A stretch of 27,483 nucleotides of DNA, taken from IMG/VR virus record IMGVR_UViG_3300047554_000461, positions 1 through 27,483 of that record. The stretch is one strand, 5' to 3'. The notes below the pieces were generated by a model. The model worked only from the letters and a program-made list of their open reading frames with translations, did no database searches and had not been told where the DNA came from. The stretch is from a virus. This document shows, piece after piece, positions 5,396 through 26,358 of the stretch. The translations under genes and the position numbers were made by a program. Positions within the stretch are counted from its first letter, which is position 1; the number at the start of each line of letters is the position of its first letter.

Positions 5396-5790
5396 TAAGC
5401 ACCTTCCGTTATTCTACTAGCCACTGTTGTAGTAGATATTAAATATATATCTACATTAGGTCCTACTGCCCACTGAGTAAATTGACCTCTTCCAATTGGA
5501 GTACCTGTGGATGTTGTAACTCCACTAGTGTATCCCCAATAAACAGTATTTGAAGTATCATGATAAAATGTGACTAATTTTCTATTAGCTAAATTAGAAC
5601 CGCCTACTCTTAACGGTGCAGCGGTTGTTGTAACTGAAAATGAACCTTGTGTTCCTGATACATTAATTATATCAGCTGTTTGCAGATCGCCATTTACGGT
5701 AGCATTGACAAAATTAGTTTCAGAACCAGAGCTATTAGCTCCAGTTAGTTTTGTAGTTAATGCTGATTGTAAATCGCTTAAATCTGCCAT
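5395..5790 (-). CDS. Small virion appendage protein
   Basis: A 131-aa Thr/Ser/Ala-rich beta-type protein. A short helical N-terminus (ADLSDLQSALTTKLTG) is followed by strands (APLRVGGSNLANRKLVTFYH, NTVYWGYTSGVT). The C-terminus (NVDIYLISTTTVASRITEGA) is of the kind found in small phage structural proteins that sit at the tail or fibre base. No enzyme motif was seen. It is embedded in a run of coupled fibre-like genes, with a 2-base gap from the preceding stop. Structural role is inferred from composition and context. Confidence 0.65.
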   Translation of the reverse strand: MADLSDLQSALTTKLTGANSSGSETNFVNATVNGDLQTADIINVSGTQGSFSVTTTAAPLRVGGSNLANRKLVTFYHDTSNTVYWGYTSGVTTSTGTPIGRGQFTQWAVGPNVDIYLISTTTVASRITEGA

Positions 5791-5792
5791 AA

Positions 5793-6491: not shown

Positions 6492-6682
6492 TTTTCATTC
6501 TCCTTTTTTGTTAATTCATCTAACTGAATTTTTAATTTTTGTTCTGTTTCTATTTGTTGTTGAATAGCAATTTCAAGACGTTTAATTTCGTCTAATCGCT
6601 CTTCAATTTTAAGTTCTAAATCAAATCGTGCAGTTTCAACACGTTTTAACTCTAATTGTTTTTTCTTTAGCTCTAATGACAT
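6488..6682 (-). CDS. Short coiled-coil protein
   Basis: A 64-aa highly charged protein that is predicted by eye to be one continuous coiled coil: LELKKKQLELKR, then DLELKIEERLDEIKRLEIAI, with hydrophobic residues at heptad spacing. It has no membrane segment or signal peptide. It lies between two appendage genes and overlaps the next one by ATGA. The start follows directly on the upstream stop (TAAATG). It could be a structural rod, a chaperone for the fibre proteins or a trimerisation helper; this is inferred from shape and location only. Confidence 0.6.
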   Translation of the reverse strand: MSLELKKKQLELKRVETARFDLELKIEERLDEIKRLEIAIQQQIETEQKLKIQLDELTKKENEK

Positions 6683-7120
6683 TTAATTTTCCTCGTCTAT
6701 TTGTATATTAGCTTCAAAATCACCTAGTGATGACATATTGTGTATTACTTTTAATACTAATATGTCTCCACCTGTTAAATATAAACCACTAAAATCCATC
6801 TTTGCGTTAAACTCTGTATAATAAACTCTTTGTACTGACAAAGGGTTACCGTTTAAATACATCGTAAACTTACTTACATTAGTACCTGACATATCAGACT
6901 TATGTAGTAAAACTTTTTTACCAACAGGTACTGTATAACTAACAATTGTAGTTTCAATACCACTTGCAACAGAGGTTATAGCATTAAATACAACCTTAGT
7001 TGTGTAAGTTGCACTAGGTACATTTGTAACAGGTAATGGTAATTGACTAGGCGATATAACGACATCAGGCATTTCCCTGATAATTACGTCCTCTATACCA
7101 GACCTGTAATCAAAAGCCAT
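6683..7120 (-). CDS. Beta-rich virion appendage protein
   Basis: A 145-aa protein. The N-terminus (SGIEDVIIREMPDVVISPSQ) is followed by a beta-sandwich-like domain with VSYTVPVGKKVLLHKSDMSG, KFTMYLNGNPL and YLTGGDILVLKVIHN. The 'tVPaGK...l' plus 'aGD.i.l.v...' arrangement is common in small phage tail or fibre accessory proteins. Only one base separates it from the preceding stop. No catalytic motif was seen. A structural role is inferred from the gene cluster. Confidence 0.65.
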   Translation of the reverse strand: MAFDYRSGIEDVIIREMPDVVISPSQLPLPVTNVPSATYTTKVVFNAITSVASGIETTIVSYTVPVGKKVLLHKSDMSGTNVSKFTMYLNGNPLSVQRVYYTEFNAKMDFSGLYLTGGDILVLKVIHNMSSLGDFEANIQIDEEN

Positions 7121-7121
7121 G

Positions 7122-7460
7122 TTATACGTCCTTAGTGCAAATAATAGCCGTCAACGTTCCTGTGCTACCCACATTTGGTACAAACTTACATCTAACCCAG
7201 TTATACATAATTTGTGGTCTATTCCACAACCTACCTTCATTACCAGCAGTATTAACAACAGTATCATTCATTTTTACCCAGATAATTTCTTCTGGTCTAG
7301 CTGTTCTATTACAAACGCTAGCTTCTAAATAGACAATACCGTCAACTGTAGCGTCCCAAAAGACTTCTACAGCATAGCCATAGCTAGAACCCACCATAAG
7401 TTCTTTACTCTCAATGGTGGTAGACGCATTTTGTCTATCAATTATTGTTACTGTACGCAT
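7122..7460 (-). CDS. Small beta-rich virion protein
   Basis: A 112-aa protein with an alternating beta pattern: RTVTIIDRQNAST, EVFWDATVDGIVYLEASVCN, MYNWVRCKFVPNVGSTGTLT. The tail segment 'W.RC.F.....stGtl.a.i' is like that of small phage structural proteins measuring deviations from a symmetric beta barrel. Cysteines are at about 50, 92 and 108. It begins 3 bases after the upstream stop. Likely an appendage component; function unproven. Confidence 0.62.
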   Translation of the reverse strand: MRTVTIIDRQNASTTIESKELMVGSSYGYAVEVFWDATVDGIVYLEASVCNRTARPEEIIWVKMNDTVVNTAGNEGRLWNRPQIMYNWVRCKFVPNVGSTGTLTAIICTKDV

Positions 7461-7463
7461 AAC

Positions 7464-8429
7464 CTAGTAGTTACCAATTTTTACTATATTAATATTAGAA
7501 GTTGAATCAGCTGATAACGCTCCTCCACCAACTGTAGTCGAAGCACTAGGTCTTATATCAATAAAGTCTCCTGCTAATAATCTAACAGTACCAGAGTAAG
7601 AGCCATCCATAGTAGTACTATCAAAACCTAAATGCTTATAAGCACTACCATTTTTATATAGTTTAACTCCTGCCGCAGAAGTTATAAAATTAATAGCTCC
7701 TGTTATTAAGTATAAACCTTGAGATGGTGCAGTAAACTTCCAAGCAGCGCCAGTAGTTACAGCTGCATTAGTATCAAATTCTTGAGTTGAAAAATCAATA
7801 GGCGCAGTAGGTCCATAAGTACCATTAGCTGGTAAATGATAAGCTGCTGATATTACAACAGGCGGTATTAAACTATCAACATAAGCTTTAGTAGCTGCAT
7901 CTTGTGGATTTATAGGATCAACAACATTAGTAATTAAATGAGTATTTAAACTTAAATCTGCATTAGCTGTTATTGTTGAAAATTGAACATTAAGAATTGC
8001 CGTACCTAGTACATTAACAACTGCACTAGTATTAGTATTTAAAATTAAATTTTCACTATCAGTTTGTACATCTTTATATACACCATTGGCATCGTCATAA
8101 GCATTAATTCTTAATCCAAAACTACCAGCTGCAAAATCAGATCTAAATATATCTGAATTTCCATATAAACGCATTGCAACACCGTCTACATTTGCTTTAG
8201 ATTGAAAAGCAAATGTGTTGTTTGCTGTGTTTACGCTTAATCTACCAATGTTACCGTTGTCAGTATATAGATTAGCCCAAAGCAAGGAAGAGTCACCAAG
8301 TGTTAGTGTACTAGAAGCATTTGGTAATAAATTTGTATTAATAGACGTAGTTGTTAAATTAGATAAAGCTGTGTTAGCTCCTCCGCCTCCACCGCCTTGA
8401 GCCGGATATTCTACATAAAAATCAGCCAT
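7464..8429 (-). CDS. Tail fibre-like protein with C1q/TNF-like head
   Basis: A 321-aa modular fibre protein. After a short N-terminal anchor (ADFYVEYPAQ) and a six-glycine hinge (about 12-17) come repeats typical of phage beta-helical shafts (LGDSSLLWANLYTDNGNIG). A shaft motif, LNTHLITNVVDPINPQDAATKAYVD (split here as LNTHLITNVVDP and NPQDAATKAYVD), is diagnostic of phage tail fibres. The C-terminal about 120 residues (APSQGLYLITGAINF, RLLAGDFIDIRPSAST) resemble the C1q/TNF jelly roll used in receptor binding. It follows the 123-aa gene after one base. Along with the 237-aa and 579-aa proteins it suggests several distinct host-recognition tips on one virion. Confidence 0.8.
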   Translation of the reverse strand: MADFYVEYPAQGGGGGGANTALSNLTTTSINTNLLPNASSTLTLGDSSLLWANLYTDNGNIGRLSVNTANNTFAFQSKANVDGVAMRLYGNSDIFRSDFAAGSFGLRINAYDDANGVYKDVQTDSENLILNTNTSAVVNVLGTAILNVQFSTITANADLSLNTHLITNVVDPINPQDAATKAYVDSLIPPVVISAAYHLPANGTYGPTAPIDFSTQEFDTNAAVTTGAAWKFTAPSQGLYLITGAINFITSAAGVKLYKNGSAYKHLGFDSTTMDGSYSGTVRLLAGDFIDIRPSASTTVGGGALSADSTSNINIVKIGNY

Positions 8430-8430
8430 G

Positions 8431-8802
8431 TTACATCACCTTAGCAACTACAGTTGCGTTTAAAGTACCTGTACCAGAAGTAAATGTATATTTTAGTCTA
8501 ATTGCAAAAGCTGGCATTTGATTTAAGTTAATCATTCCTTTACCTGTATTACCAGATATAGCAGCAGTTGCGCCCGTTACTTCACTCCAAGTACCAGCGT
8601 TTAATACTTTACCAGATGCATCAACTGAATAGTCATTCGAAGCTTCTACTGTTACAACACCAACGGGTGAAGTACCAGTCCAAGTAACTTGATAAGATAT
8701 CATTGATAAATTAGTTATGATTGTTGCAACTGAGGTTATATCGGCTGACATATCGCCGTCTTTGATTGCTTGAAACGGCTTTAAAAAGGGTCTTGAAGAC
8801 AT
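8431..8802 (-). CDS. Small virion protein at the head of the fibre cluster
   Basis: A 123-aa protein recognisable as a small phage beta-sandwich structural protein: QVTWTGTSPVGVVTVEASND, then WSEVTG, then INLNQMPAFAIRLKYTF and a GTGTLNATVVAK terminus. It is the first gene after a 58-bp gap that holds a putative promoter and a hairpin. Its ribosome binding site (AAGGAG, about 8809-8814) is embedded in the hairpin stem, so translation may depend on opening that stem. Structural role is inferred from family resemblance and context. Confidence 0.7.
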   Translation of the reverse strand: MSSRPFLKPFQAIKDGDMSADITSVATIITNLSMISYQVTWTGTSPVGVVTVEASNDYSVDASGKVLNAGTWSEVTGATAAISGNTGKGMINLNQMPAFAIRLKYTFTSGTGTLNATVVAKVM

Positions 8803-8863
8803 ATTATAGGCTCCTTATGGGTTTAAACGCTTGATTGCGTAGCTATAAGAGCCCAAATGTCTA
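8803..8863 (-). promoter_or_regulatory. Intergenic control site: degenerate late-promoter motif plus hairpin
   Basis: One of only four noteworthy gaps on the structural strand. At 8841-8863 a 23-bp segment matches the motif at 15468-15490 and 22804-22826 at 15 of 23 positions, including the full TAGACA block and a TCTT core. It is followed in transcription direction by a hairpin: GGCTCTTAT (8853-8845) pairs with ATAAGGAGCC (8817-8808) with one bulge, enclosing an inner GCGT/ACGC pair set. The stem contains the ribosome binding site of the 123-aa gene. It could be a late promoter followed by an RNase processing site, in the place of T7 phi-17. No U-run follows, so a terminator is less likely. 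Confidence 0.45.
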
Positions 8864-11800
8864 TTTCATTTTGTTTGTTTCTGACTTTTGTAACGGTGTC
8901 ATATAACTAGCGTTGATTTTACCTAGTTTAGCTGTGTTTTTACTAGCTCCAGGGGCCGGACCTTGTTGTTGATTAGTTATTTTTTGCTGATGTACAGCTT
9001 GTGCAGCTAATATTGAACTAGGTTGCATTGTAGTATCTAATGCTTGACCTAAGAATAACGATGTAGAAACTCGTTGTTTATATGGCATTTGTTTATCAGC
9101 AGCTTCTAAATTGCTTATTTCATTGGTAATATTAGTTACATATTTACTATAAAGGTATGGATATATACCGTTTAAATCTTCTATATCACTAGTTTGTAGT
9201 GTACCGTCTTTAATATGTTGTAATACAACTAAAGGGTTTTGAGCAATGTCTAAAGCTCTGTAATATCTTTGTTTTTGTGCTTCTGATGGTTCAATTGGCT
9301 TATCTAATACTGATGGTTTATACGGTTGTGGTTTTAACGCTTGTAAATATTGTACTGCACCTGTGGCACTAGCGGCTAATGATGCTTGATGATTAGGCAT
9401 ATAGTGAGCTAAGTCAGTATTACCTAAACTATCCATTAACGCATAAGGATTTTCTTCTAATTTTTTTAGTTTTTTAGCCAATTTATCTCTAGATTCTTGA
9501 TCAGGTATATCGTTTATAACAGTTTTAACACTAGCATTAAATAAGTTTTTAGTAGCTTTACCTAGTTTATTTTCGAATTTATATGTATCATGTATAGCTT
9601 CAACCATTGCTTTAAAAGCTGTAGATTGTACTGGTTTGTCACTAGCCATAAACTTTAAATACGCTAATCTAATTGCATCCGGTATATTACGTCCAGTTGC
9701 TTGTGCTACTTCACCAGCTAAATAACCTAATAATGGGTTTTGTCCCATTATTGCAGCTGCTCCAGCTAATGCAGATTGAGGCATTTTATCAAATACTTTA
9801 GTCATCCATCCAGCAGTACCAGATGATTTAGGACTAGGTATTCCAGTTAATACGTCTGTAGCTGATTTAACCATCGACATAGTATCAGGTGATATTAATG
9901 ATTCAACATATTCTTTTTTACCGGCTAAACCTTTATCTATTAGATCAGCAAGTTTTTTAACATTGATTTCTTGACCTTCTTTTGCACTTAAAAAAGCTGG
10001 TTTAACAAATTCTTTAAACTCTGCTTGTTTAACTTTGTTTAAAGTTTCAGGAAAGTTTTGTTGTAAGAATGGTATAAAGTCAGCATTATTTTTAATTGAA
10101 AATTTATTTAATAGTTGTTCAGCTGACAATTTATCTGTAAGTTTATTTTCTAATGTCTTAGCACCGTAGAAATCACCGACACCTAAGTGATTAGTTAACT
10201 CATCAGACATATTAGCAAAGTCTCTGTATTGTTTATTTAATAAGTTACGTTCTTCTATTAATTGATTAGCAATGTTTACATCGCTTACATCTTTGATTTG
10301 CTTAACTATTTCACGTTCTTGTAAATCAGATATAGCTTCTTTAATATCTCGTAATGCGTTGATTTCGTTATAATCGCCACCTACTTTTAAACCTTTTATT
10401 TTATCATTGATTTCAGTTTTAAGTTTATCTAAACCACCAACTGTATCTTTAGCTAATATACGATCAGCATATTGTTGATAAGTTTTAAAATAAGGGCTAT
10501 CAGCTCCTATTTTACTTACACCATTCTCTAACATACTGGTATAGTGTTCTAGTTTAGCGTCATCTGATAATTTAATTTCTTTAGCAAGCTCATCACGTTC
10601 TTTAAACTTTTGTTCAAATGGTGAGTATTTAGTATTGTATTCTTTTTTAAACGTTTCTAATAAATCATTACCAGCTTCTGATTTTGAATAATACATCATT
10701 TCATTAGGATCAACGTTTAATGTCTCTAATACAGCTTTTTCAGCTTGTTTATGTGCATTGTCAATTGATGCTAATACTTCACTGTTTTGCACTTCTTTTA
10801 ATACATTAAATTTATTAACTAAATTAGGATCTTTACTTACTGCCGCTCTTAGTAATGGATCACTGTCAACACCAATAGCTCTCATTGATGCTTCAAGTTC
10901 TTCTGGTAAGAATAAAGTTTTACCAGACATTCTGTCGTACATTGTATTTAACGTATCATCTAGTTTTTTACCAGCTGTAGCTTTCCATAACTCAGATGTT
11001 CCGCCCATTACGCCACCTAATGCACCACCCAGTACGCCAGCTAAGCCTATATTACCTATAGCTGATTGCATTGAAGCATCTGGATCTTTTAATATTACTT
11101 TAGATATTTCATCACTACCTTGTTGAACCATGTTTTCAACGGCTTCTTGAACAACTTTACTACCTATTTTACCTAATACAGATGTTTTTTCAGCTAAACC
11201 AGCAGCTTTAGTTATAGCTTGACCAGCTTTTGACATTACAGCTGCTTCACCTGTACCCGTAAACATACCTATACCTAAACCAGCTGCTTCACCAACACCC
11301 TTAGTAATAGGATTTAATGCCGCTCTAGCTCTTATATCATCAGGATTTTGTCCTAATTCAGTTTGTAATAATGGCGCTAATGGTCCAGCTATTCCCTCTG
11401 CAATACCTTCAACCGCTGTTAAAGCTATTTGACCAGGTGTTTCATATTTACTAGTGTCTTCTGTTTCATCAAATGCAGGTAATCTTTCTTGTGGAATATC
11501 CATTGTTTGATCAAACGAAGGCATATCTTGAACCATTCCACCTTCGGCATAACCTTCTAATGGTTGTTCAGGTTGTTGATCATTAGAAGGCATTAATAAT
11601 CCAGTAGCAGGTACCGCCGCAACTCCAGCAAGTTCAGTACCTTTTCCACCTACATGTTTATATCTAGGATCAAATGCTGCACCTGGTGCTCTATCTGCTC
11701 CTCCGCCTTTAATTACAGATCTAGATGCTTGTTGAGTGTTTGCTAATGTATTTAAAGCATCATCAGTTATTTGTTTTTGAAACGCAGGGTTAGCGTTAAA

Positions 11801-12352
11801 TAACTCTTCAGTTACATTTTTTGCAGCTTTAACAGCTTGAGTGTCTTTGTTAACTACTCTATGAGGTGCCCAATCTCTTTGTGGATGAGGACCAAACACT
11901 TTATCTAAAGCATCAAGAAATTTTGCAGCTTTTGGTCCACCAGCAGCTACAATATTATTAGCTTCTTGAGCACTTAAAACATTAGATACTATTTTTAACG
12001 GTTCTTCACCATGTTGTTTAACGACATTAGCTATTTCATTAAGTTTTAAACCTAGCATATTAGCGTAATCTTTAGATTTAACGCCTCCAGAAAAGTTTAA
12101 AGCCATGTTTTCAGGTAAGTTTTGAAATTGTTCTTCTCTATCGCCTTTAGATACCATCGGTATTTTATCAGATGTAGTATCTAAATTTAAATCAGGCATT
12201 ACTTTATTAATTAACTCTGCACTAACATTTATACCAGAGTTTAATGCCGCTCTTATTACGTTTGCTGGATCTTCATAATCATATTCGTTAAATAGTTTTG
12301 GATCTATTTCTTTTTGAAGCTCTAGTATTTGTTTTTTGGTTTTAGAATCCAT
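8861..12352 (-). CDS. Large internal virion protein (gp16-like position)
   Basis: An 1163-aa protein, the largest in the window. The position (after the 404- and 612-aa genes, before fibres) matches T7 gp16, which crosses the envelope during DNA ejection; homology is not evident. There is no lytic transglycosylase signature. Visible: a helical N-terminus, a GGGADRAPGAAFDPRYK stretch (216-232), a YAEGGMV motif (268-274) shared with its two neighbours, a Gly/Ala hydrophobic segment NIGLAGVLGGALGGVMGG (434-451), and a long Lys/Glu-rich coiled-coil zone (about 520-820). Two further Ala/Gly segments (GEAAGLGIGMF at 354-364; ALAGAAAIMGQNPLLGYL near 860) could insert in membranes. It starts after an AAAGGATAG site, 8 bases from the preceding stop. 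Virion/ejection role is inferred. Confidence 0.72.
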   Translation of the reverse strand: MDSKTKKQILELQKEIDPKLFNEYDYEDPANVIRAALNSGINVSAELINKVMPDLNLDTTSDKIPMVSKGDREEQFQNLPENMALNFSGGVKSKDYANMLGLKLNEIANVVKQHGEEPLKIVSNVLSAQEANNIVAAGGPKAAKFLDALDKVFGPHPQRDWAPHRVVNKDTQAVKAAKNVTEELFNANPAFQKQITDDALNTLANTQQASRSVIKGGGADRAPGAAFDPRYKHVGGKGTELAGVAAVPATGLLMPSNDQQPEQPLEGYAEGGMVQDMPSFDQTMDIPQERLPAFDETEDTSKYETPGQIALTAVEGIAEGIAGPLAPLLQTELGQNPDDIRARAALNPITKGVGEAAGLGIGMFTGTGEAAVMSKAGQAITKAAGLAEKTSVLGKIGSKVVQEAVENMVQQGSDEISKVILKDPDASMQSAIGNIGLAGVLGGALGGVMGGTSELWKATAGKKLDDTLNTMYDRMSGKTLFLPEELEASMRAIGVDSDPLLRAAVSKDPNLVNKFNVLKEVQNSEVLASIDNAHKQAEKAVLETLNVDPNEMMYYSKSEAGNDLLETFKKEYNTKYSPFEQKFKERDELAKEIKLSDDAKLEHYTSMLENGVSKIGADSPYFKTYQQYADRILAKDTVGGLDKLKTEINDKIKGLKVGGDYNEINALRDIKEAISDLQEREIVKQIKDVSDVNIANQLIEERNLLNKQYRDFANMSDELTNHLGVGDFYGAKTLENKLTDKLSAEQLLNKFSIKNNADFIPFLQQNFPETLNKVKQAEFKEFVKPAFLSAKEGQEINVKKLADLIDKGLAGKKEYVESLISPDTMSMVKSATDVLTGIPSPKSSGTAGWMTKVFDKMPQSALAGAAAIMGQNPLLGYLAGEVAQATGRNIPDAIRLAYLKFMASDKPVQSTAFKAMVEAIHDTYKFENKLGKATKNLFNASVKTVINDIPDQESRDKLAKKLKKLEENPYALMDSLGNTDLAHYMPNHQASLAASATGAVQYLQALKPQPYKPSVLDKPIEPSEAQKQRYYRALDIAQNPLVVLQHIKDGTLQTSDIEDLNGIYPYLYSKYVTNITNEISNLEAADKQMPYKQRVSTSLFLGQALDTTMQPSSILAAQAVHQQKITNQQQGPAPGASKNTAKLGKINASYMTPLQKSETNKMK

Positions 12353-12360
12353 TCTATCCT

Positions 12361-14199
12361 TTATTTATAACGTAAAGGCTGTTTAGTTACAGCGTCATAT
12401 ATGACTATTCTACCATCTTTGGTTACTCTTTCAATAGTTTTTTGTGTAGGAATTTGTGGTTTTAAACCGTTAGCTTGTAACATAGCGTTGTAGTTATTAG
12501 CCATTCTTTGTTCTAACGAATCTAATTTAGTCATACTGTTAGAATCTAAAGATGTCATACTTGTAACATCAGGTATTAAGTTCATTAATAATTCACGTTC
12601 ACCATCAGACATTGCACCTGGTCCAGTGATAGGCATTCTTAATCTACCAATTAGTGATTGTCTAATAGTATCTGCTTCTGCTCTTAAATTAGGGCTAAAA
12701 GATTTACCAGTTTTAGCTAATATTTCTCTAAGTCTATTAACATCTTGTTTAACTGTGTCAACCGCTGTTTTCATTTCTCTAACGCCTTTAGCACCTTCGT
12801 TAGTTGTAGCAAGACCGACACCTGGTACTGATCTTTCACGTAATTCTTTAGCTGACTTAGGATCTAAGTTTTCTAAAGCATTAATCATAGCGTCCATGTT
12901 TTGTGGATCTTTACCTATTTGATTTTTAATATCAGCTAGCGTTTGGTTTTTAGCAAGTTCTTGTAATTGACCTTGTTTTTCTAATTCAAGTTTACCAATT
13001 AATTGAACAGCTTGAGCTTGCGCCATTGGTGTTTTAGCTTTAGCAGCTGCAAGTTTTAATTTAGTTGTTAAAGAATCGTTAAGCATGATTCTAGTCATTG
13101 TTGTAGCATCTTGAACGTTTTTAAAATGTTCTAAATTAGCTTTAAGTAAATTATGTGAACTGTTTAGATTTGTTTTCATAGCTTCTAAACTTTCGTTCAT
13201 TTGATGTTTTAACATTTCAGCAGCGGCGTTTGGTCCATTTTGTGCTGGTTGAAATCCAGCTATAATCATACCAATAGCTGCCATTAATTTGCTATGACCT
13301 GGTACTTTATCACCATTTGGTAATGTGTATCCAGTCCAATATTTATCTGGGTTAATGTACCCAGCTTCAATGTCTTTTTGAAATGCTTGTCTATCAGCTT
13401 CTAATGATTGTAGTTTTTCATTATAAGCATTAGTAATATTTTTTTCTTGTATAGCGGCTTGTTGTAACGCTTGTACTTCTTCTTCACCTAACTGAGCTTC
13501 TGCTGCTGCTTGTTGTAATATACCAGCTTTAAGGATAGAGTCACCAAGGTTAACAGATGGAGCCATTGTTTGTGGCTGTTGTATTTCAGGTTGTTGTATT
13601 TGTTGTTCAACAGGTGTAGCTAATGACGGTTGTTGTTCAAGTTGTCCGTTAGCATTTGGTAATACAGGTTGTGTAGGTTCTGCTAATGGAGCTAAACCTA
13701 ATCTCGAACGTTGTTGATTTTCAGCTTGAATATTTTGTAATTGTTGTTGACGGTATTGTTCACGCTCAAGTGCACCAGCTTCTAATTGAGCTTTTTCTCT
13801 TTCCATTTCTGACAATGCAAATTTGTTTATTGCATCTGGAGTCATGTGTGGATATTGTTTACTAATCTGTTCAACTTTAGCTTGATATTGATATTCAGGT
13901 GATGGTTGAGTTAATACAGGTTGGTTAACATCGAAGTTTGTATTTGGAAATGGTTGCTCAGGTACGTCAGCTGCAATGTATGGTGGTATTTCTCCACCTT
14001 CGGCCATTTTAATAGGCTCTTTAACTTCTTTAGTTTCTTGTTTAGGAGCAAGTTCTTGTAATCTTTTAATATTGTCTTTTGACAATGTTTTATGATGTAA
14101 TATAATTTGATGCTTATCTTTTTTATGTTCTAATGTTGTGCAATTATCATCAGATGAAACATATTTAAAGTTTTTAAAATCAAGTTTTATATTACTCAT
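12361..14199 (-). CDS. Internal virion protein (gp15-like position)
   Basis: A 612-aa protein. The N-terminal about 50 residues form a small module (DFKNFKYVSSDDNCTTLEHK, then HQIILHHKTLS) that recurs at the start of structural proteins in many phages. It is followed by the shared MAEGGEIP motif (65-72), a Gln/Pro-rich linker (about 85-215) and helical regions with a hydrophobic patch SKLMAAIGMIIAGFQPAQNG (about 303-322). The C-terminal motif RLRMPITGPGAMSDGERE (about 519-536) is common in podovirus internal or core proteins. It lies 4 bases after the 404-aa stop. It likely forms part of the ejectosome with the 404- and 1163-aa products; assignment is by order and motif, not by clear gp15 homology. 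Confidence 0.7.
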   Translation of the reverse strand: MSNIKLDFKNFKYVSSDDNCTTLEHKKDKHQIILHHKTLSKDNIKRLQELAPKQETKEVKEPIKMAEGGEIPPYIAADVPEQPFPNTNFDVNQPVLTQPSPEYQYQAKVEQISKQYPHMTPDAINKFALSEMEREKAQLEAGALEREQYRQQQLQNIQAENQQRSRLGLAPLAEPTQPVLPNANGQLEQQPSLATPVEQQIQQPEIQQPQTMAPSVNLGDSILKAGILQQAAAEAQLGEEEVQALQQAAIQEKNITNAYNEKLQSLEADRQAFQKDIEAGYINPDKYWTGYTLPNGDKVPGHSKLMAAIGMIIAGFQPAQNGPNAAAEMLKHQMNESLEAMKTNLNSSHNLLKANLEHFKNVQDATTMTRIMLNDSLTTKLKLAAAKAKTPMAQAQAVQLIGKLELEKQGQLQELAKNQTLADIKNQIGKDPQNMDAMINALENLDPKSAKELRERSVPGVGLATTNEGAKGVREMKTAVDTVKQDVNRLREILAKTGKSFSPNLRAEADTIRQSLIGRLRMPITGPGAMSDGERELLMNLIPDVTSMTSLDSNSMTKLDSLEQRMANNYNAMLQANGLKPQIPTQKTIERVTKDGRIVIYDAVTKQPLRYK

Positions 14200-14203
14200 A
14201 TTA

Positions 14204-15418
14204 CTACTTTTTAATGTGTTGTTTGTTTAATATAGCGGCAACAAATTCAGCTGATTTTTTAGCTGCATCTTTACCATGAACTATAGATCTAGGGATAATT
14301 ATCCCGCCTTCTTTTAACATTGCTGGAACTGTGTCGTTAGCGTAACTGTCACCTTGAACTTTAGCTACACCTGGGATAGTTTTACCTACTGTTAATGGGC
14401 TAGCTCCACCTTTTACTTTAGCTAAATCTTCTGGAGCTATGTATTTTTCTCCAGGACTTACTAATGCAGGTACTTGACCACCTTCGGCCATTTTAACGGG
14501 GCTATTAAAATATTGTGCGATTCTTGACATGGGTTGTTCAGATTTAATTTCTCCACCTGATGCCATATTAATAGGTTGTTGCCTATGCATCATTCCACCA
14601 GATCCAGCAGAACCACCGCCTCCAGCAGTCATCATTCCTCCACCGCCAAAGCCTCCACCCATTCCGCCCATTGGGATACCAGTCATTGCTGAACTTACTC
14701 CACTGGCTACACCTTGAGCTATTTTAGCTTGTCTATCCAAATTTGCAGCGGCAATTCCAGAATTGTATTGATTAGCTTGTGAAATATTACCTACAGCTGC
14801 TTGGTTTCTATTACCTATTGCTTGTAGTATATTACCTTGTGAATTTAATGCAGTATTAGCTAATTGATTTTGAGCATTTAGCTGATTTTGAGCTTGTTGT
14901 CCTGCAATATTACCCATGTTATTTAAAGCTGCTAATTGTTGATTAGCTTGTAATGCAGCACCTTGTCCGACAGCTTGTTGTTGTAAGTTAGCGCCTTGTT
15001 GTGCAGCAAGTCTAGCTATTAACGCAGGATTAGTAGCAGCGCCTCTTTGTCCGGCCATTAATGCAGCTTGGTTAGCTATATTAGCACCTGTTTGTTGGTT
15101 TAACATAGCTTGAGCAGGATTTGGTCCTACTCCACTTGCTATATTTTGCATTTGATTGTAAACATTAGTTTGATTTTGTAATCCGTTTTGGGCTTGAATT
15201 GCTTGTAAAAAGGCTTGTTGTTGAGCAATTGTATCTTGAACGTTTTTGTATTGTTGATTAGCTTGTTCAGCTGTGGCAGGTTCTATTAATGAAGTTTGCT
15301 GAACTGAATCAGCGCCTTCATACAATTTTCTAGCTCCACCGAGTATATCAGTTCCTAATATACCGCCGCTTGTTATTTTTTTTAAACCTTTTTCTAACGT
15401 AGATCCTATATTACCCAT
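14204..15418 (-). CDS. Internal virion protein (gp14-like position) with PALVSPGE domain
   Basis: A 404-aa protein. Residues about 50-230 are Gln/Asn/Ala-rich helices (QQQAFLQAIQAQ, NQLNAQNQLANTALNSQGN). A Gly/Met-rich linker (GMGGGFGGGG, about 245-280) leads to MASGGEI and then MAEGGQVPALVSPGEKYIAP (from about 310). The last 95 residues form a compact module with GDSYANDTVPAMLKEGGIII and a basic helical end. This A-x-GG-x-VPALVSPGE module is frequent in internal structural proteins of podoviruses. It is the first gene after the strong 23-bp promoter-like motif at 15468-15490. Expected to be ejected with the DNA or form the internal core; inferred from synteny with T7 gene 14. Confidence 0.72.
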   Translation of the reverse strand: MGNIGSTLEKGLKKITSGGILGTDILGGARKLYEGADSVQQTSLIEPATAEQANQQYKNVQDTIAQQQAFLQAIQAQNGLQNQTNVYNQMQNIASGVGPNPAQAMLNQQTGANIANQAALMAGQRGAATNPALIARLAAQQGANLQQQAVGQGAALQANQQLAALNNMGNIAGQQAQNQLNAQNQLANTALNSQGNILQAIGNRNQAAVGNISQANQYNSGIAAANLDRQAKIAQGVASGVSSAMTGIPMGGMGGGFGGGGMMTAGGGGSAGSGGMMHRQQPINMASGGEIKSEQPMSRIAQYFNSPVKMAEGGQVPALVSPGEKYIAPEDLAKVKGGASPLTVGKTIPGVAKVQGDSYANDTVPAMLKEGGIIIPRSIVHGKDAAKKSAEFVAAILNKQHIKK

Positions 15419-15908: not shown

Positions 15909-18884
15909 TTATCCAAAACTTTGTCCAGATTTATTAGTTCTGTATCCGCGTTTCATACCAACAATTAGGTTTAAACCAGATAAAGACAGTCCTTGTCCTG
16001 CTACTATATTATAGCTTGGATCATAAACTTCTTCAATTATAATTTGAAAAGTTTCACATTTTTGTTTTTCTGGAAATACTCTAGCTTTAAATATATTACT
16101 TGATCCGCCCCATGACTTACCATCACCGTATAGAGGATCTGCACCGTAGCTTGGAGCGTAATTATCCGGAATTACTAGTATATTTTGCTCTGGACTAGGA
16201 TTAAAGTCATAAGCTATTTGAACATTTAACTTAAATGGCGTAAAATACTCACCGAGTATGTACATTTCGTAAAATCTTTCAAGACCTTGTATTCCAGCTA
16301 ATGAAATCCATGATGTTCTAAACTTAATTAATACAGGTGTTGAACCATCTAAATAAGTACCTACTGTTTCTTGATAAACATTACCTAAATTACTTAAATA
16401 AGTGTCTTTACTATTATATAATGTTGCAGATACGACGTTTAAGTTTGTTCTACTACCCCATTGACCATAATAAAAGTCATAAACTAATATAGTTTTGTTA
16501 TTTAAATAAAATCTAACTTCATTTGTACCTGGTACAGTTTGAGCAGATACAACTTGATTAGCATTATAAGCTTCTACTGGTGCACCAATGTAAGATGTTT
16601 GTAAACCACGATCTAATAGCCATATACCTTTGTCAGATTGAAACATTAATCCTTGTGGTGTTAATACTATTGATTTAGGATTGTCGCATCCAACCGCTGA
16701 TGTTATAAATACTGGATCACTAAAATCGTTATTAGCTCCTGTAATGTCTGGTCCTGTACCTACAAAGTAATATATTGCATCTTTTTTAAATACAATTAAT
16801 TTATCGTCCATTGTTCCTAATGCTGTTACTTTACCAGTACTACCTTGTGCACCTGATGTAGGGGCTACGTATAATGTAAATGAATCAGACATTTCAACTG
16901 GCGTACTTTGTAATATAGGTTTTGAATACCATAGTAAGTTAGTTTCAGCGTCTATTAATACTAATCTATTTTTAAACAATACTGAGTGTATACATCCTGG
17001 GGCAGCAATGTTTTCAACTACTCCACCTGTTGTGTATAGTATTGTGTTACCTAATATTGCACTATCAGCTAATGTATCTGTAATTGTAACATTATCAATT
17101 GTTGTATCGTTTAGTGTTGGACTTGTTAAAGATGTAAATTGATAATATGTTTGTTGACCTTCACTCCATCTATAACCAACAATTCTTACACCTTCTTTTT
17201 TAGTTAAACGTAATGTAGGAACTTTTAATATAACTGATTTATTAGCACCAGTTGTAGTGATTTTAGTTGGGATTGATGGTGCAGATCTATGTAAATAACC
17301 TTGATTATCTGTCCATTCATAACAAAAACTATAGAAATATGTTTGTGGGTCAATATTTCCACCATTACTTTGAGTAGCAGTTATGTTTTCTGGATATATA
17401 AAAAATCCATGTTCAACAGGTTTAACGCTATCATATTGCCACAATATACCACCTGTAATGTGTAAACTGTTAGATACTTCTGACAATGCTCTATCTGGTA
17501 TGTTTAATGAAAATTTAACTAAATTAATACCTGTTTGCGTGTATATGGCGTTTACTGGTTCTGTAGATGTAGGATCTGTTTGTTTATTAACAGGTACTAA
17601 TTGCGTTTTAATTAGATAAGGTGTTAAATATTGTGTACCTATTAGCGTTATTTGAGGTAATACTTGTGAATCTAAGTATCCACCACCGTTAGAATAAGCT
17701 AATTTCATTATAATATTGCTATTACTATCAGTTAAAAAGTAGGTTGGTTGGTTAACTTCACCATATGTTACTAACATATAGCTTTTATTATTAGATATAA
17801 ATGGTTTAGATGCTAATCCAACTGATCTAAGCAATACATTTGTTGTAGTTGTTAAAGTGTTAAGATTTAATAAAGTTTTTTGGGTGTAATTAGTTTGATT
17901 ATTAGGCGTAAAATTGTAAGTATTACTAACTTCATAATAAACTTCTAAGTCTGTATTTACTATACTTGTTATTCTATTGATTGTTAAACCTGTAAATAAC
18001 GTAGTTTTAACTAATGTTTGAGCTGATAAATCTAAGTTATACCCTATAGCATAACCATTTGTTGAATTTGCACCAATTAAATAAACTGTGTTGTTTTTAG
18101 CTGTTACAGATATTACATTAGCTGTTGATGATGTTGTAAATATAGAAGTAGATACGATTAAACCAGTTGTTATGTAACACATTTTAACTACAGATGATGT
18201 AGCTTCATATCCAACATATAATCTATTATTAAATACATAAGCATCGTAACCAGAATTTATACTGTTTACATCAACACATAAGTCTTGTGGTGCTATTATG
18301 TTAGATGGGTTAAATGCTGATATAGCTGTAAACTTTATATGTATATTAGAACTTACTGTTTGTTTATATAATACTACAAAATAGTTACCTAAAACATATA
18401 CTCTAGCGTCTGATGATCCTGACGGTATTTGTGCTTTAGTTGTTATTGTTTCACCTGTTTGACTATTAAATACTTGGTAATAATATAAACCTGTATCTTT
18501 ATAAACTACACAAGCAGATCCATTAGGCATTATAGCTACATCTGCTGATGATTGACTAGTATTAATTCTCACTAATGATTGTGTGCTTAATGTAATAGGT
18601 TCTACAGTACCTCTGTCAATCCACTCATTTAAGTTTTGATTATAGGCGTAAAGATTTGTACCTGTGGCTAATAAGTTATTGTTTAATGTAGCTAATGTTG
18701 TTTGATTAGCGTTTGGTAATGATGATAGTTTTGGATACCCATCACGTTTAACCAATGCTCCAGCTTTTGTAAACTTAGTGTTTTCTAATTCTAAAAACTT
18801 ACCTATCTGAACGCGTTTGCTATCAGTTTTGGTTTCTAGACCTTCTACAAAAGCTAAATCAATAGGTTGTTTTTGTAAAGCCAT
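15909..18884 (-). CDS. Tail nozzle/tubular protein B-like structural protein
   Basis: A 991-aa beta-rich protein in the place of T7 gp12 (tail nozzle). The N-terminus (MALQKQPIDLAFVEGLETKT, then KFLELENTKFTKAGALVKRDGY) matches widespread phage proteins of this size. The centre has repeated beta-propeller-like strands (LNTLTTTTNVLL, NSLHITGGILWQYD). A conserved segment lies near residues 690-730 (GTMDDKLIVFKKDAIYYFVG, then SAVGCDNPKSIVL). The C-terminus FQIIIEEVYD, then LSGLNLIVGMKRGYRTNKSG is typical of these nozzle or DNA-stabilisation proteins. It starts 2 bases after the fibre gene stop with a CGGAGC site. It should close the distal tail and act as a conduit for DNA. Confidence 0.8.
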   Translation of the reverse strand: MALQKQPIDLAFVEGLETKTDSKRVQIGKFLELENTKFTKAGALVKRDGYPKLSSLPNANQTTLATLNNNLLATGTNLYAYNQNLNEWIDRGTVEPITLSTQSLVRINTSQSSADVAIMPNGSACVVYKDTGLYYYQVFNSQTGETITTKAQIPSGSSDARVYVLGNYFVVLYKQTVSSNIHIKFTAISAFNPSNIIAPQDLCVDVNSINSGYDAYVFNNRLYVGYEATSSVVKMCYITTGLIVSTSIFTTSSTANVISVTAKNNTVYLIGANSTNGYAIGYNLDLSAQTLVKTTLFTGLTINRITSIVNTDLEVYYEVSNTYNFTPNNQTNYTQKTLLNLNTLTTTTNVLLRSVGLASKPFISNNKSYMLVTYGEVNQPTYFLTDSNSNIIMKLAYSNGGGYLDSQVLPQITLIGTQYLTPYLIKTQLVPVNKQTDPTSTEPVNAIYTQTGINLVKFSLNIPDRALSEVSNSLHITGGILWQYDSVKPVEHGFFIYPENITATQSNGGNIDPQTYFYSFCYEWTDNQGYLHRSAPSIPTKITTTGANKSVILKVPTLRLTKKEGVRIVGYRWSEGQQTYYQFTSLTSPTLNDTTIDNVTITDTLADSAILGNTILYTTGGVVENIAAPGCIHSVLFKNRLVLIDAETNLLWYSKPILQSTPVEMSDSFTLYVAPTSGAQGSTGKVTALGTMDDKLIVFKKDAIYYFVGTGPDITGANNDFSDPVFITSAVGCDNPKSIVLTPQGLMFQSDKGIWLLDRGLQTSYIGAPVEAYNANQVVSAQTVPGTNEVRFYLNNKTILVYDFYYGQWGSRTNLNVVSATLYNSKDTYLSNLGNVYQETVGTYLDGSTPVLIKFRTSWISLAGIQGLERFYEMYILGEYFTPFKLNVQIAYDFNPSPEQNILVIPDNYAPSYGADPLYGDGKSWGGSSNIFKARVFPEKQKCETFQIIIEEVYDPSYNIVAGQGLSLSGLNLIVGMKRGYRTNKSGQSFG

Positions 18885-18886
18885 TA

Positions 18887-20626
18887 TTATAGCTCCGATG
18901 TGTATATAATTAATCTAATAGATGCGTAGTTACCTGCTCCAGCTGTTTGAGATACTACAAAATAAGCACTTTTATTATCTATTACTGTTACTGCTCCACC
19001 ATCAGCGTTATTATTACCAATTAAAGTAGATCCACTTGCTGTAGGTGTAGACCTCATAGGAACCATAAAAGTAATTGGTGTATATGTTTGTGCTCCTGCA
19101 CCTGGGTAAGCTGAACCGCCAGAAGCTACTAATGACATATAATATCTTTGGCACAGATCAAACTCTTCTGGTATTGTTTTACCTATTCTTGAAAAACCTT
19201 GGAAAGCTTGATTGTTTAATACTATGCCTGTAACACTTACATACCCTGGATTAGCTGATAAATCGTTACCAGTCCATTGTACAGAACCAGCAAAGTTAAA
19301 TGAACTCTCTAAAGTCCAAGAATCAAGATTAGATGTCGTTGTACCACCCGTAGGTGCTATGTCAACAAACATACTTAAACTATTAGTTCTAGAGAAATCA
19401 AAACCTGGTAATACTATTGTTTTTTGTATTTGCTCCCATGTATCAGCTGTTGTATTAGTGAATGAAGTTACGTAGTTTTGAAAAGTAACTCCAGTTGAAT
19501 CTACAATTCTCATTCTAATTGGAAATGATCCAACATGGTTTGATTTAAAATAAAAGCTTAAATATATTGTATCTGACGTTCCTATACCTAATGTAAATGT
19601 ACCTTCTACTCTGTGTGAGAACGGTATTACATAATTCGCGCTACCTGTTAATAAAGTGTTAAGATTAGATGTAGCTTTAGCACTATATACTACGTCTTTA
19701 GATATTGCCGATGGTACTGATGTATCTTGTGATATTGTTAAATCTATATTAGGTCCTGAACCTCTACCGTATAACGTTACAAATCTATCAGCTAAAAAGA
19801 AAGATCCTGTTGTAACAGTTGATACTACTACGTTTTGAGATGTACCACGTTGCCAAAAATCAAATCCACCGTTTATTATAATGTTTGATTGTTTAGCTGC
19901 TATTAATTGATTACCTACAATTTTGATTGTATTATCATCTACGTCCAAAGTAGATAACAATTGACCAGATGAATTTAATTGTACTATCTTAGTTGATACA
20001 GGTATGGAAGGCGTTTTAATGTCTGTGTTGATTGCACCTGTAGTTCCTATGCTTAATATAGATGTGCTAGCTGGTAATGTTGGTAGTGTAATTGAAAAGT
20101 CGCTAGATAAAGCAGCTGGTGGATTTAAAGTTAATGCAAAAGTTGAGTTTGGTAATAAATTTCTTAGTTTTATAGATCCAATGTCTAAATTAGCTGCTAC
20201 GTTTGTATTAGAACCAAAAACAAATGTAGATGATGCTGGTACGTAACTAACAAATGCAGGTGACAATAAATTGCTTATAGATCCTGGAGTACCATTTACA
20301 CCACTATCTTTAGTTAATCTAATTTCGCTTCCGTTTACATCTGTATAGTATAAATCAACGCCTTTTACAAATACTGTAGCAGGTGTTGAATTAGATGTTT
20401 GTACTGATAATGTTACGCTTTTTAAGTTAGTAAATCCATAGCCATTCATGTTTATATCACTTACTATTGTGATACCTTCTGAACTAATTGGCATACCTTT
20501 ACCTGGGCTATGGTCATGTTGATCTATTAAATTTAATGATTGGTTTATTTCAAACGCATATGTAGGGCCTACATCGACACCAACTGTAGGTATTATTAAA
20601 GACATATTAGGACTTGTTGTACTCAT
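18887..20626 (-). CDS. Tail fibre/spike protein
   Basis: A 579-aa fibre protein. The N-terminal anchor SLIIPTVGVDVGPTYAFEIN, then LIDQHDHSPGKGMPIS (to about 48) is a common attachment region of phage fibres. A beta-rich shaft follows with NGYGFTNLKSVTL. From about residue 248, INGGFDFWQRGTS marks a carbohydrate-binding-like domain found at the C-terminus of many fibres, ending with EEFDLCQRYYMSLVASGG (about 487-504) and a beta-rich tip. Unusually it sits between the adaptor/small protein genes and the nozzle gene, not downstream of the internal proteins. Receptor binding to surface glycans is inferred from the domain type. Confidence 0.8.
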   Translation of the reverse strand: MSTTSPNMSLIIPTVGVDVGPTYAFEINQSLNLIDQHDHSPGKGMPISSEGITIVSDINMNGYGFTNLKSVTLSVQTSNSTPATVFVKGVDLYYTDVNGSEIRLTKDSGVNGTPGSISNLLSPAFVSYVPASSTFVFGSNTNVAANLDIGSIKLRNLLPNSTFALTLNPPAALSSDFSITLPTLPASTSILSIGTTGAINTDIKTPSIPVSTKIVQLNSSGQLLSTLDVDDNTIKIVGNQLIAAKQSNIIINGGFDFWQRGTSQNVVVSTVTTGSFFLADRFVTLYGRGSGPNIDLTISQDTSVPSAISKDVVYSAKATSNLNTLLTGSANYVIPFSHRVEGTFTLGIGTSDTIYLSFYFKSNHVGSFPIRMRIVDSTGVTFQNYVTSFTNTTADTWEQIQKTIVLPGFDFSRTNSLSMFVDIAPTGGTTTSNLDSWTLESSFNFAGSVQWTGNDLSANPGYVSVTGIVLNNQAFQGFSRIGKTIPEEFDLCQRYYMSLVASGGSAYPGAGAQTYTPITFMVPMRSTPTASGSTLIGNNNADGGAVTVIDNKSAYFVVSQTAGAGNYASIRLIIYTSEL

Positions 20627-20627
20627 A

Positions 20628-20915
20628 TTAAAACACCCATAGCGACACTGTGCAATCTTTGTCGCTTGTTATTGTTAAAGTTTTATTGTTAAAAGGTTTT
20701 GATCTATATAATATTGCTGAATCATTTATATCAGTTATTATATAACCTAATTGTTTTCTGTTTAATAAATGATTTATAACGTTTACACCTGTTTTTATTT
20801 CGATGTTAGTTATATGTAAACCACCTCTGATTAATATAGAGTTAAGCATTGGGTCAATTTCTTTTGCCCAAGCTACTTGCATTAAATCTAGAGGTAATTT
20901 TTGTGGTAATGCCAC
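20628..20915 (-). CDS. Small conserved virion protein, GTG start
   Basis: A 95-aa protein. An upstream in-frame TTG at 20942 would give 104 aa, but the GTG at 20915-20913 is better: it overlaps the adaptor stop (TAGTG), has AGGTGG 6 bases upstream, and yields a product beginning with ALPQKLPLDLMQVAWAKEID, like related phage proteins. Other visible features are HITNIEIKTGVNVINHLLNR and GYIITDINDSAILYRS. Proteins of this type are found next to head-tail connector or fibre genes of podoviruses. Function is unknown; it may cap or connect the adaptor ring and the fibre. Confidence 0.75.
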   Translation of the reverse strand: MALPQKLPLDLMQVAWAKEIDPMLNSILIRGGLHITNIEIKTGVNVINHLLNRKQLGYIITDINDSAILYRSKPFNNKTLTITSDKDCTVSLWVF

Positions 20916-21964
20916 TAAAACCCACCTATTCCACTGTTCCAACCGCCATTAAATCCATTACCATAGTTTTTATGTACGTTTGAAATAGTGTTTGGTTGAG
21001 CTTCATCTCTATTAGCAGCAGCATCTTCAATTCTTTGTTTAAGGAATAAGATTTGAGCATCTAGCTTTTGTGTATCTGCTTCTTCTTTATCTAAAGCATA
21101 TTTAGCGGCTCTTACTATTACATATTCTATCCATCCGCTTATGCCAATGTCTGATGTATCTGTGTCTAGTAGTAATTCTGTTAATCTAGGGATGTACCAT
21201 ATTCTAATGATTTGCCCAGATGAAGGTGTAGGTATAAACTCTATTTTGTTTCCCATAAGTCTGTATTGTAGATTAAATACGCCGTATATTGTTGACGCTG
21301 TGTTAGGGAATACAAATCTATTTCTATCAGCAAAGTTAAATTTGTTTACTGTTACATAAGCGTTGTTAGCTGTTTGTAATCCTAAGTCAACACCTAGTAG
21401 TTTATAAAAAGCTTTTGGTGTAAATGTTTGATTACTTAATGCGTTTGTAAATGTGTTACTTCCGTTTGGTAATTCGTACATAAATGTAGTACCATCGGAT
21501 ATAAATGAAATTGGAGTGTGTACAAAGTAGTCTTCGTAAGTAGTTACTAATAGATCATATAGTTCATACATAGCTTGATTTATATATGTACGCCATTCTG
21601 ATTTACTTACAAAATTACTATTTACTCTGTCTGCTCTTTGTTGAGCGGCTAATCTTATTTGAGATAAAGTCATTTCTGCTGCATTAGTAGCCATTCCTGA
21701 TTGGGATATTGTAAATGAACTTTGTCCTGAACCATTAGCCGCAGCTACTATATAATAATACTGGGTACTTACTGCTATTGTTGTGTCTAAGTATTGTGTA
21801 GCTAATGGAGTACCTGATATTGTAGCGATTGTTGAAAATGTTATGTTATCTTCACTTCTTTGAACGATATATGATGTAGCACCAGCTACTAAATCCCAGG
21901 AAACTAGGATTTGTCTATTAGCATCTTGAACGATAAGGTTATTTGGAATCCCTGGTATAGCCAT
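20915..21964 (-). CDS. Head-tail adaptor (gp11/tubular protein A-like) with N-terminal FN3 domain
   Basis: A 349-aa protein. Residues about 3-95 form a fibronectin type III domain (ILVSWDLVAGATSYIVQRSE, then TQYYYIVAAANGSGQSS). From about residue 97, TLSQIRLAAQQRAD, SEWRTYINQAMYELYDLL and TTYEDYF give the adaptor core seen in podoviral tubular protein A/connector proteins. A strand region ends at IRIWYIPRLTELL and a helical part EEADTQKLDAQILFLKQRIE. The tail is Gly/Asn-rich. It is the first gene after a hairpin terminator, as gene 11 follows T-phi in T7. It likely bridges the portal and the nozzle; the FN3 domain would be displayed outside. Confidence 0.82.
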   Translation of the reverse strand: MAIPGIPNNLIVQDANRQILVSWDLVAGATSYIVQRSEDNITFSTIATISGTPLATQYLDTTIAVSTQYYYIVAAANGSGQSSFTISQSGMATNAAEMTLSQIRLAAQQRADRVNSNFVSKSEWRTYINQAMYELYDLLVTTYEDYFVHTPISFISDGTTFMYELPNGSNTFTNALSNQTFTPKAFYKLLGVDLGLQTANNAYVTVNKFNFADRNRFVFPNTASTIYGVFNLQYRLMGNKIEFIPTPSSGQIIRIWYIPRLTELLLDTDTSDIGISGWIEYVIVRAAKYALDKEEADTQKLDAQILFLKQRIEDAAANRDEAQPNTISNVHKNYGNGFNGGWNSGIGGF

Positions 21965-21982
21965 TTTGCCTTTGCTTAAAAT

Positions 21983-22006
21983 TAGCGGCTATATTTCAAG
22001 CCGCTA
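21983..22006 (-). terminator. Hairpin terminator between the 225-aa gene and the adaptor gene
   Basis: A perfect 8-bp inverted repeat, TAGCGGCT and AGCCGCTA, with an 8-base loop, 8 bases downstream of the stop of the 225-aa gene. In the minus direction the stem is followed by ATTTTAAG, a short U-run, so termination is probably partial. Its place between the first late gene and the adaptor gene is that of T-phi in T7, which lets gene 10 be made in excess. Confidence 0.65.
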
Positions 22007-22013
22007 GGTTATA

Positions 22014-22691
22014 TTATTGACCTTGAACTATAATAGATGAGTCAGATAAAAATAAAGTAATACTGATTAATGAACCAGCTGTAGGAGCTACTAAAGCACC
22101 TGCGTAATCGCGAGCTTGTAGTATGATTTGCGCTCCAAAACCTTGTCCTTTAGTTGCATCTGGTGCAATTGAAAGGTTAGAATCACCAACGATTTCTAAA
22201 GAAGCTACAGATGATCCTGTTGAAGCTGTCTCCATTACTCTAGAAGTTGATACGTTAGCTGTACCACCATTAGTTTTAGCTATAAAAGCTACACCAACTG
22301 CTGGAGTTACTCCATCTGGTACTCCTAAAGCGTGCCAAGTAGCAGCAGAAGCGTCTCCTAATGTAGAGATTATATAAGCTGTACCAACTGTTAAAGCAGC
22401 GTTATCTATTTGTAATGCTGATCCAGATGTAGGTGATACTATTGAGTGAGTAATTCCTAACAATCTGTTATAGTTATCTTGTAATCGGATTACGATTGTT
22501 CCATTTACTGGATCTGGGTTAAGTGCTCCAGGTGTATTTGCGTTCATGAATACGTTTTTAACTGTAGCGCCTTTTAAGCTGTTAATTCCGTTTTCATTAG
22601 TAGGGTCAACGATGAAGTTCATTGTGACCATTACTGGTTTTGTTTCCATGATGTATAATTTACCACCATTAGAAAAGTTTCTATTTGCCAT
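22014..22691 (-). CDS. Structural protein, possibly a head decoration protein
   Basis: A 225-aa protein of a type seen in many podovirus-like phages next to connector genes. Visible: ANRNFSNGGKLYIMETKPVM at the N-terminus, FIVDPTNENGINSLKGATVK, VNGTIVIRLQDNYNRLLGIT, a Gly/Ala-rich middle (PDGVTPAVGVAFIAKTNGG) and SISLFLS-like C-terminal strands. It is isolated by the strong promoter-like motif plus a 113-base leader upstream and by a hairpin terminator downstream, which predicts high expression. Too short for a typical HK97-fold capsid protein and lacking an obvious capsid signature, so decoration or head-fibre protein is my inference. Start ATG has AGAGG 8 bases upstream. Confidence 0.72.
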   Translation of the reverse strand: MANRNFSNGGKLYIMETKPVMVTMNFIVDPTNENGINSLKGATVKNVFMNANTPGALNPDPVNGTIVIRLQDNYNRLLGITHSIVSPTSGSALQIDNAALTVGTAYIISTLGDASAATWHALGVPDGVTPAVGVAFIAKTNGGTANVSTSRVMETASTGSSVASLEIVGDSNLSIAPDATKGQGFGAQIILQARDYAGALVAPTAGSLISITLFLSDSSIIVQGQ

Positions 22692-22803
22692 TGTGTTACC
22701 TCTTTTTATATACCCTCGTGTTTGTGCCTTACAGACGTATCTTCGGGCTCACCATTGCTTAGAGGGAAATAAGAAATGGGGGACTATTAAGGTAACCTCA
22801 ATA
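22692..22803 (-). promoter_or_regulatory. 5' leader of the 225-aa gene
   Basis: Non-coding stretch between promoter motif B and the ATG at 22691. It would be the 5' untranslated region of the late transcript. A modest stem can form between GTGAGCC (22752-22746) and GGCAC (22728-22724) with one bulge. The segment 22704-22697 carries the AGAGGTAA ribosome site. No tRNA, riboswitch or ORF was recognised in it. Confidence 0.4.
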
Positions 22804-22826
22804 TGTCAAAAGATACCATCTGTCTA
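22804..22826 (-). promoter_or_regulatory. Putative late phage promoter, copy B
   Basis: On the minus strand it reads TAGACA, four bases GATG, then GTATCTTTTGACA. It differs from copy A at 15468-15490 by two transitions only. It starts directly after the stop codon of the 77-aa gene and stands 113 bp before the ATG of the 225-aa structural gene, in the largest gene-free gap of the window. Shared conservation over 23 bp in non-coding sequence at the heads of two late operons is the main reason to call a promoter. Confidence 0.68.
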
Positions 22827-26334: not shown

Positions 26335-26358
26335 TTATATTTCTCCTTTTTATATTGT

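Follow-up and report, generated by a model that had tools for sequence, protein, structure and literature searches.

Nearly the same 23-bp segment lies ahead of two structural operons in the phage DNA studied here, which raises the question of whether such segments are late promoters private to this phage and, if so, what reads them. The window, that is, the whole stretch of DNA that we analysed, is a complete IMG/VR virus record of 27,483 bases and represents a phage genome fragment. Whole-genome checks were therefore run in its relatives.

Three sites and their operons in the window

The minus-strand segments 22804-22826 (TAGACAGATGGTATCTTTTGACA) and 15468-15490 (TAGACAAATAGTATCTTTTGACA) agreed at 21 of 23 positions, as the original prediction had stated, and both differences were A/G transitions. 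The degenerate 23-mer, allowing up to three mismatches, matched exactly twice in the window and not once in 100 dinucleotide shuffles. A 13-bp core with three mismatches was not enriched in the window (18 found versus 14.85 expected), so the full length of the motif matters. A scan of the collection with the core TRGTATCTTTTGACA returned at least 119 stretches and was set aside, as a core of this length lacks specificity.

A third segment, 8841-8863, had been proposed on a 15/23 match upstream of the fibre cluster. This match was reproduced, but 15/23 matches are abundant elsewhere in the window, so the segment is unconvincing by itself and would be weak on the window alone. However, a motif derived without the window, from 26 other phages, ranked 8842-8866 first among 54,918 window positions (15.1 bits, the next scoring 11.8), while the other two sites ranked only 89 and 115. 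Both of these lack the C at column 16 of the family motif described below, and the pair noticed at the outset is therefore atypical, whereas the site judged weakest is the typical one. We refer to the three putative late promoters as P2 (22804..22829, minus strand, TAATAGACAGATGGTATCTTTTGACA), upstream of a connector/tail operon, P3 (15468..15493, minus strand, TATTAGACAAATAGTATCTTTTGACA), upstream of an internal virion protein operon, and P4 (8841..8866, minus strand, AAATAGACATTTGGGCTCTTATAGCT), upstream of the fibre cluster.

The sites had been placed in gaps upstream of structural operons. All three do precede minus-strand gene blocks, and each lies at the end of the gene before it. P3 overlaps the 3′ end of the ORF 15480-15791, its TAGACA part falling within the last codons of that ORF (TTA GAC AAA TAG), and the TAG of TAGACA in P4 is the stop codon of the preceding gene. 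P4 lies about 61-64 nt ahead of the start codon, in line with the relatives, in which P4 sites cluster 58-69 nt ahead of it. The statement that no -10 box follows held for 22804 but not strictly for 15468, which carries TTGACA-18-TATTCT (10/12). Sigma-70-like matches of that grade occur at chance frequency in the window (90 found versus 92.9 expected), and -35/-10 hexamers at 16-18 bp were not common to the sites, being chance-level matches only.

The operons were delimited from their ORFs. The P2 operon (15909..22691, minus strand), also supported by synteny in relatives, encodes a 225-aa protein, an SU10 adaptor-like protein (20915-21964; PF24175, E=4e-6), a 104-aa protein, a fibre-like protein and a 991-aa conserved tail protein. 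The P3 operon (8861..15418, minus strand) keeps its order in relatives, and its 404-, 612- and 1163-aa products are probably internal virion proteins, the 404-aa protein having no relatives in IMG/VR by single-sequence scans. The P4 operon (3293..8802, minus strand) comprises a 123-aa conserved protein, whose family is present in 15 of 15 compared genomes, fibre-like proteins and the genes after them. Elsewhere in the window, 26331-26631 on the minus strand holds low-complexity ORFs, with a Gly/Tyr/Asp-rich repeat in one frame and an Ala/Thr repeat in another on the same DNA. A gene for a ClpP-like protease with an apparent signal peptide lies at 1663-2421 on the plus strand (PF00574, E=1.8e-16), and four further genomes that we compared have related protease genes.

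Private motifs at matched positions in the relatives

A single-sequence search with the 991-aa tail protein (15909-18884) returned four relatives, and 171 stretches in IMG/VR matched when the same protein was searched as an alignment; 80 loci were retained from these. The tail protein had no match in GTDB (one genome per species), and neither it nor the capsid protein had a match among 50,697 isolate phage records, in which no cultured member was found. The window belongs to a large, widespread and uncultured phage family with about 170 relatives in IMG/VR. Genes in the relatives were assigned by PHROGs and Pfam matches together with synteny. The protein clustering set comprised 15 records, namely 14 genomes of 47-59 kb, whose completeness was judged by size and permuted gene order and not by CheckV, and the window. 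The gene order is podovirus-like, running from terminase, portal, scaffold and capsid through accessory genes to the operons found in the window. One relative, G001, has its major capsid gene in two pieces (L128 9093-11315) around an HNH endonuclease gene (9591-10145), an intron-like or otherwise interrupted arrangement. Two other loci carry near-identical 62-nt repeats containing TTGACA-17-TATTCT (L171 3077/3780 and L188 3233/3990), which are probably duplicated sigma-70-type early promoters.

An unguided repeat search revealed that G001 and G002 carry different 20-30 nt repeats at the same three operon starts (ACCTAATACGCTATATTA in G001, whose motif is ACCTAATACGCTATATTAAG, and GTGACTGAAAGTCATAATTGA in G002), and private repeats emerged in many further relatives when gaps were compared one by one. 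Inverted repeats within the G001 and G002 motifs had suggested hairpin promoters of the N4 virion polymerase type; this candidate was rejected, since by inspection the second window copy does not preserve the repeat. We then employed a triplet test, in which the three operon starts were anchored by protein homology and the best common 20-mer among the three upstream regions was scored. Shuffles gave a mean of 36.1 and a maximum of 41 (n=228), and triplets mixed from different phages a mean of 36.0 and a maximum of 40 (n=150). The window triplet of P2, P3 and P4 scored 45 of 60, above the null maximum of 41, and 15 of 38 distinct phages scored above all shuffle and mixed-phage controls; the anchors were picked after the repeats were known in the first relatives, so these are not independent and the remainder are. 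A good part of the relatives showed no clear private motif with the anchors used.

The strongest single result came from a position that was not used in fitting. Motifs learnt from P2, P3 and P4 only were scanned over the 47-59 kb genomes, and in eight of them (G001, G006, G007, G012, G024, G036, G038 and G041) they predicted a fourth site, P1, with 17-20 of 20 positions matching. P1 lies on the coding strand, in the gap that separates the terminase gene from the head operon downstream. The fourth copy was known before the scan in G001 and G006, and was first found by the scan in the six others; in G001 all four copies are identical across 18 bases. Matches of at least 17/20 beyond P1-P4 were rare, with one near-duplicate in G041. 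This bears on the concern that the motif might occur equally often at random positions inside genes: in the scanned relatives it occurred at operon starts and almost nowhere else at that threshold.

The private motifs share a common frame across phages, RGACA...C...TTAT-R. Expectation-maximisation over 168 upstream regions, with the window site at 22804 as one of ten seeds, gave a 25-column family motif in which C occupies columns 8 (0.82) and 16 (0.88), RGA precedes column 8, columns 17-22 are AT-rich and column 23 is a purine. When each of 61 phage groups was left out in turn, the best match of a locus fell upstream of a late-operon anchor, defined as 20-175 nt from the anchored late gene, in 13 cases versus 0.6 expected, and a top-five match did so in 28 versus 2.9 expected; the training sites had been chosen by a matrix that saw all phages, which leaves a small circularity in these counts. 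Identity at columns 5-7 and 9 was 0.84-0.93 within a phage and 0.39-0.52 between phages, and at columns 12-15 and 17 it was 0.84-0.93 within and 0.25-0.37 between, the within-phage values being raised because only sites resembling each other within a phage enter the comparison. Columns 8 and 16 were conserved both within and between phages. Recognition would extend over about 18 contiguous bp, in which the RGACA block is followed by about five positions private to each phage, the conserved C, an AT-rich stretch for melting and a purine as the start.

Taken together, the triplet test, the within- and between-phage comparison, the genome scans and the leave-one-out motifs bear out the original prediction that the motif marks late operons and is phage-specific. 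Judging from sequence comparison, we put the probability that the motifs are phage-specific late promoters at roughly 93%. Genomes that are long enough would then have four late promoters, P1 for the head, P2 for the connector and tail, P3 for the internal virion proteins and P4 for the fibres.

A structured leader downstream of P2

The 22692..22803 segment (minus strand), between P2 and the first gene of its operon, appears to encode a conserved structured RNA that is present in many relatives with a conserved GGUGAG. In relatives the leader from P2 to the first gene is 100-110 nt long (L003 6131-6229, L142 1252-1356, L182 5305-5404 and others), and GGTGAG was invariant in 14 aligned leaders. 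In the window GUUACCUU pairs with GAGGUAAC at the ribosome-binding site. The 5′ segment reads ATATCCTC in most phages and GTTACCTT in the window, and its partner at the ribosome-binding segment reads GAGGATAT or GAGGTAAC, with compensatory changes. In a rough test that did not restrict the pairs to a single homologous helix, the longest leader helix scored a mean of 7.7 within a phage versus 5.9 when the two ends came from different phages. No Rfam match was found at the leader in the window or in three relatives. The P2 leader is therefore a candidate new RNA family that may sequester the ribosome-binding site.

Candidate readers of the late sites

That the motifs are something other than promoters, such as sites of processing, of recombination at module boundaries or some other element between blocks, is suggested by their location at operon boundaries directly after stop codons. 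However, the motif strand is always the coding strand of the downstream operon, P4 keeps its distance of 58-69 nt from the start codon, the structured P2 leader begins just past the motif, and a sequence private to each phage would be useless for recombination between phages, all of which makes such an element very improbable. A second possibility is a phage-encoded RNA polymerase. The original prediction had likened them to T7-type promoters, and the resemblance stands, as a contiguous motif of about 17-23 bp is repeated upstream of late operons. T7 promoters are laid out as -17 to -13, -11 to -7 and -4 to -1 (PMC10138996), and a divergent, hard-to-recognise phage polymerase might use RGACA as the upstream contact, take its specificity from -11 to -7 and melt -4 to -1. 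If column 23 is the +1 purine, the column pattern fits: positions -11 to -8 and -6 hold the private block, -7 the fixed C, and -4 to -1 the AT-rich melting stretch. Individual sites such as GGCACTATTGAAG look T7-like. As in the T7-type Autographiviridae, some 18-23 contiguous bases precede the late operons in a code that differs from phage to phage. The single-subunit RNA polymerase gene to be expected from this likeness did not turn up: PF00940 had no match in 49 relatives or in the window itself, a fragment, and the T7 control was detected at about E=9.9e-110. Moreover, the 14 genomes of 47-59 kb held no unexplained large ORF. The large families common to the clustered records were DNA polymerase A, DnaB-like helicase, DEAD helicase, SbcC, terminase, portal, capsid, tail and internal virion proteins, and polymerase-sized common families were all otherwise assigned or structural. 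Judged by eye, the unshared ORFs of at least 400 aa resemble metabolic enzymes, fibres or internal virion proteins. Two large proteins of the last kind were also considered as hidden polymerases; profile comparison with T7 RNA polymerase gave nothing, by a method so insensitive that the DNA polymerase profile missed it too. The family further differs from T7-type phages in having RGACA where these have an AT-rich upstream block, in its four sites per genome with none found before early genes, and in tail and capsid proteins without a match among isolate phages. We thus regard a phage polymerase of this kind as unlikely; given the negative PF00940 search and the absence of an unexplained large ORF, a phage factor acting on the host polymerase is more likely.

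Phage factors of two known kinds were weighed. The window encodes an ECF-type sigma factor-like ORF of 164 aa upstream of P2 (23971..24465, minus strand), which matches TIGR02937 (E=4e-7 over residues 9-157, below the curated cut-off) and phrog_1740 (E=1.4e-4); single-sequence scans of IMG/VR found no relatives of it, and its AlphaFold model (pLDDT 52.5) is too poor for interpretation. This protein could read the promoters like phiEco32 gp36 or phage 7-11 gp47, and phiEco32-like podoviruses do use phage sigma factors on late promoters whose genome positions are conserved and whose sequences have diverged (PMC8948821). The family described here shares with them the podovirus-like gene order, late promoters at conserved positions with sequence differing between phages, and early genes apparently under sigma-70-type promoters. 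However, convincing two-domain sigma genes were present in only 3 of 50 records (G000, G046 = L223 and G050 = L224), with an ORF comparable to that of the window in only 2 of 49 relatives (G046 and G050), whereas the promoter architecture is family-wide. Because of this narrow distribution the ECF protein was rejected as a family-wide reader. Nor would 18 contiguous conserved bases be expected of a two-domain sigma, whose site should be bipartite. The late promoter of phiEco32 is the 9-bp single element tAATGTAtA and that of 7-11 is GTAAtg-16-aCTA, bipartite with a 16-bp spacer (PMC8948821); by inspection the family consensus TAAAGGACAAATTGCCAATTATAAA is of neither type, and most members here, unlike those phages, have no recognisable two-domain sigma factor. 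It is decidedly improbable that the ECF-type protein reads the promoters of the window. A MotA-like activator might instead bind the RGACA...C box while the AT stretch serves host sigma-70 as its -10 element. T4 middle promoters, with a MotA box centred near -30 in place of the -35 element and upstream of the -10 element, offer a precedent (PMC6755090), and here too a box lies close upstream of an AT-rich element, the box being bound in T4 by a phage DNA-binding protein in MotA/AsiA sigma appropriation. The 3′ end of the motif often carries TATAAT-like strings (CATAAT, TATATT, TATAGT), but on our reading of the site list these are not in a fixed register across phages. In contrast to T4, the bases between the box and the AT stretch are conserved as strictly within a phage as the ends, and a MotA-like reader seems to us rather unlikely.

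The candidate that we favour is a helix-turn-helix (HTH) protein of 120-160 aa, characterised by W-Y-x-K-L...G-F-x-D-I-E and a C-terminal HTH. Genes of this GFxDIE family occurred in one copy each in 42 of 50 records (L128 1196-1669 in G001, L249 15558-15980 in G024 and 40 others), just upstream of the terminase gene in the clustered genomes; the gene is absent from the window, a truncated record. In G028 (L272 5923-6720) the protein is fused to its neighbouring acetyltransferase-like protein. Its C-terminal part overlaps sigma region 4/ECF profile matches in several phages, and region 2 was not recognised. The structure model (pLDDT 78, confident in the helical part) weakly resembles sigma factors and regulators and had no Foldseek match at E below 0.001. 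In G006 the gene before the HTH-protein gene is preceded by TTGACA-17-TATATT, which is consistent with early expression by the host polymerase. Distances between HTH proteins correlated with those between promoters in 14 phages (Mantel r=0.40, p=0.0006; partial on the tail protein, r=0.34, p=0.003). With only the HTH domain considered, the correlation was weaker (r=0.25, p=0.03) and lost significance once relatedness was controlled for (p=0.17), so the link between reader and promoter is suggestive only. We propose that host RNA polymerase would make the late transcripts and that this small, early, sigma-region-4-like phage protein would confer specificity at the late sites; we see about an even chance that the host polymerase is redirected in this way. 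Against it counts the motif itself: 18 contiguous, fully conserved bp that include a fixed AT stretch are a more usual signature of a single-subunit polymerase than of a sigma factor. A further possibility, which we hold to be less likely than not, is that T7-like, rapidly diverging 18-bp promoters are read by something else than a known single-subunit RNA polymerase, either a polymerase of unrecognised type or a single small sigma-4-like protein that gives the host polymerase its contiguous 18-bp specificity.

If the small HTH protein is the reader, orthogonal expression could make use of a specificity factor of very small size. The promoters themselves would form a large natural set of orthogonal promoters, in which dozens of phages each use their own code at matched positions, and with a compact candidate reader the co-evolution of promoter and reader becomes directly testable. 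The finding would add a late-transcription strategy to a phage lineage in which no cultured member has been found.
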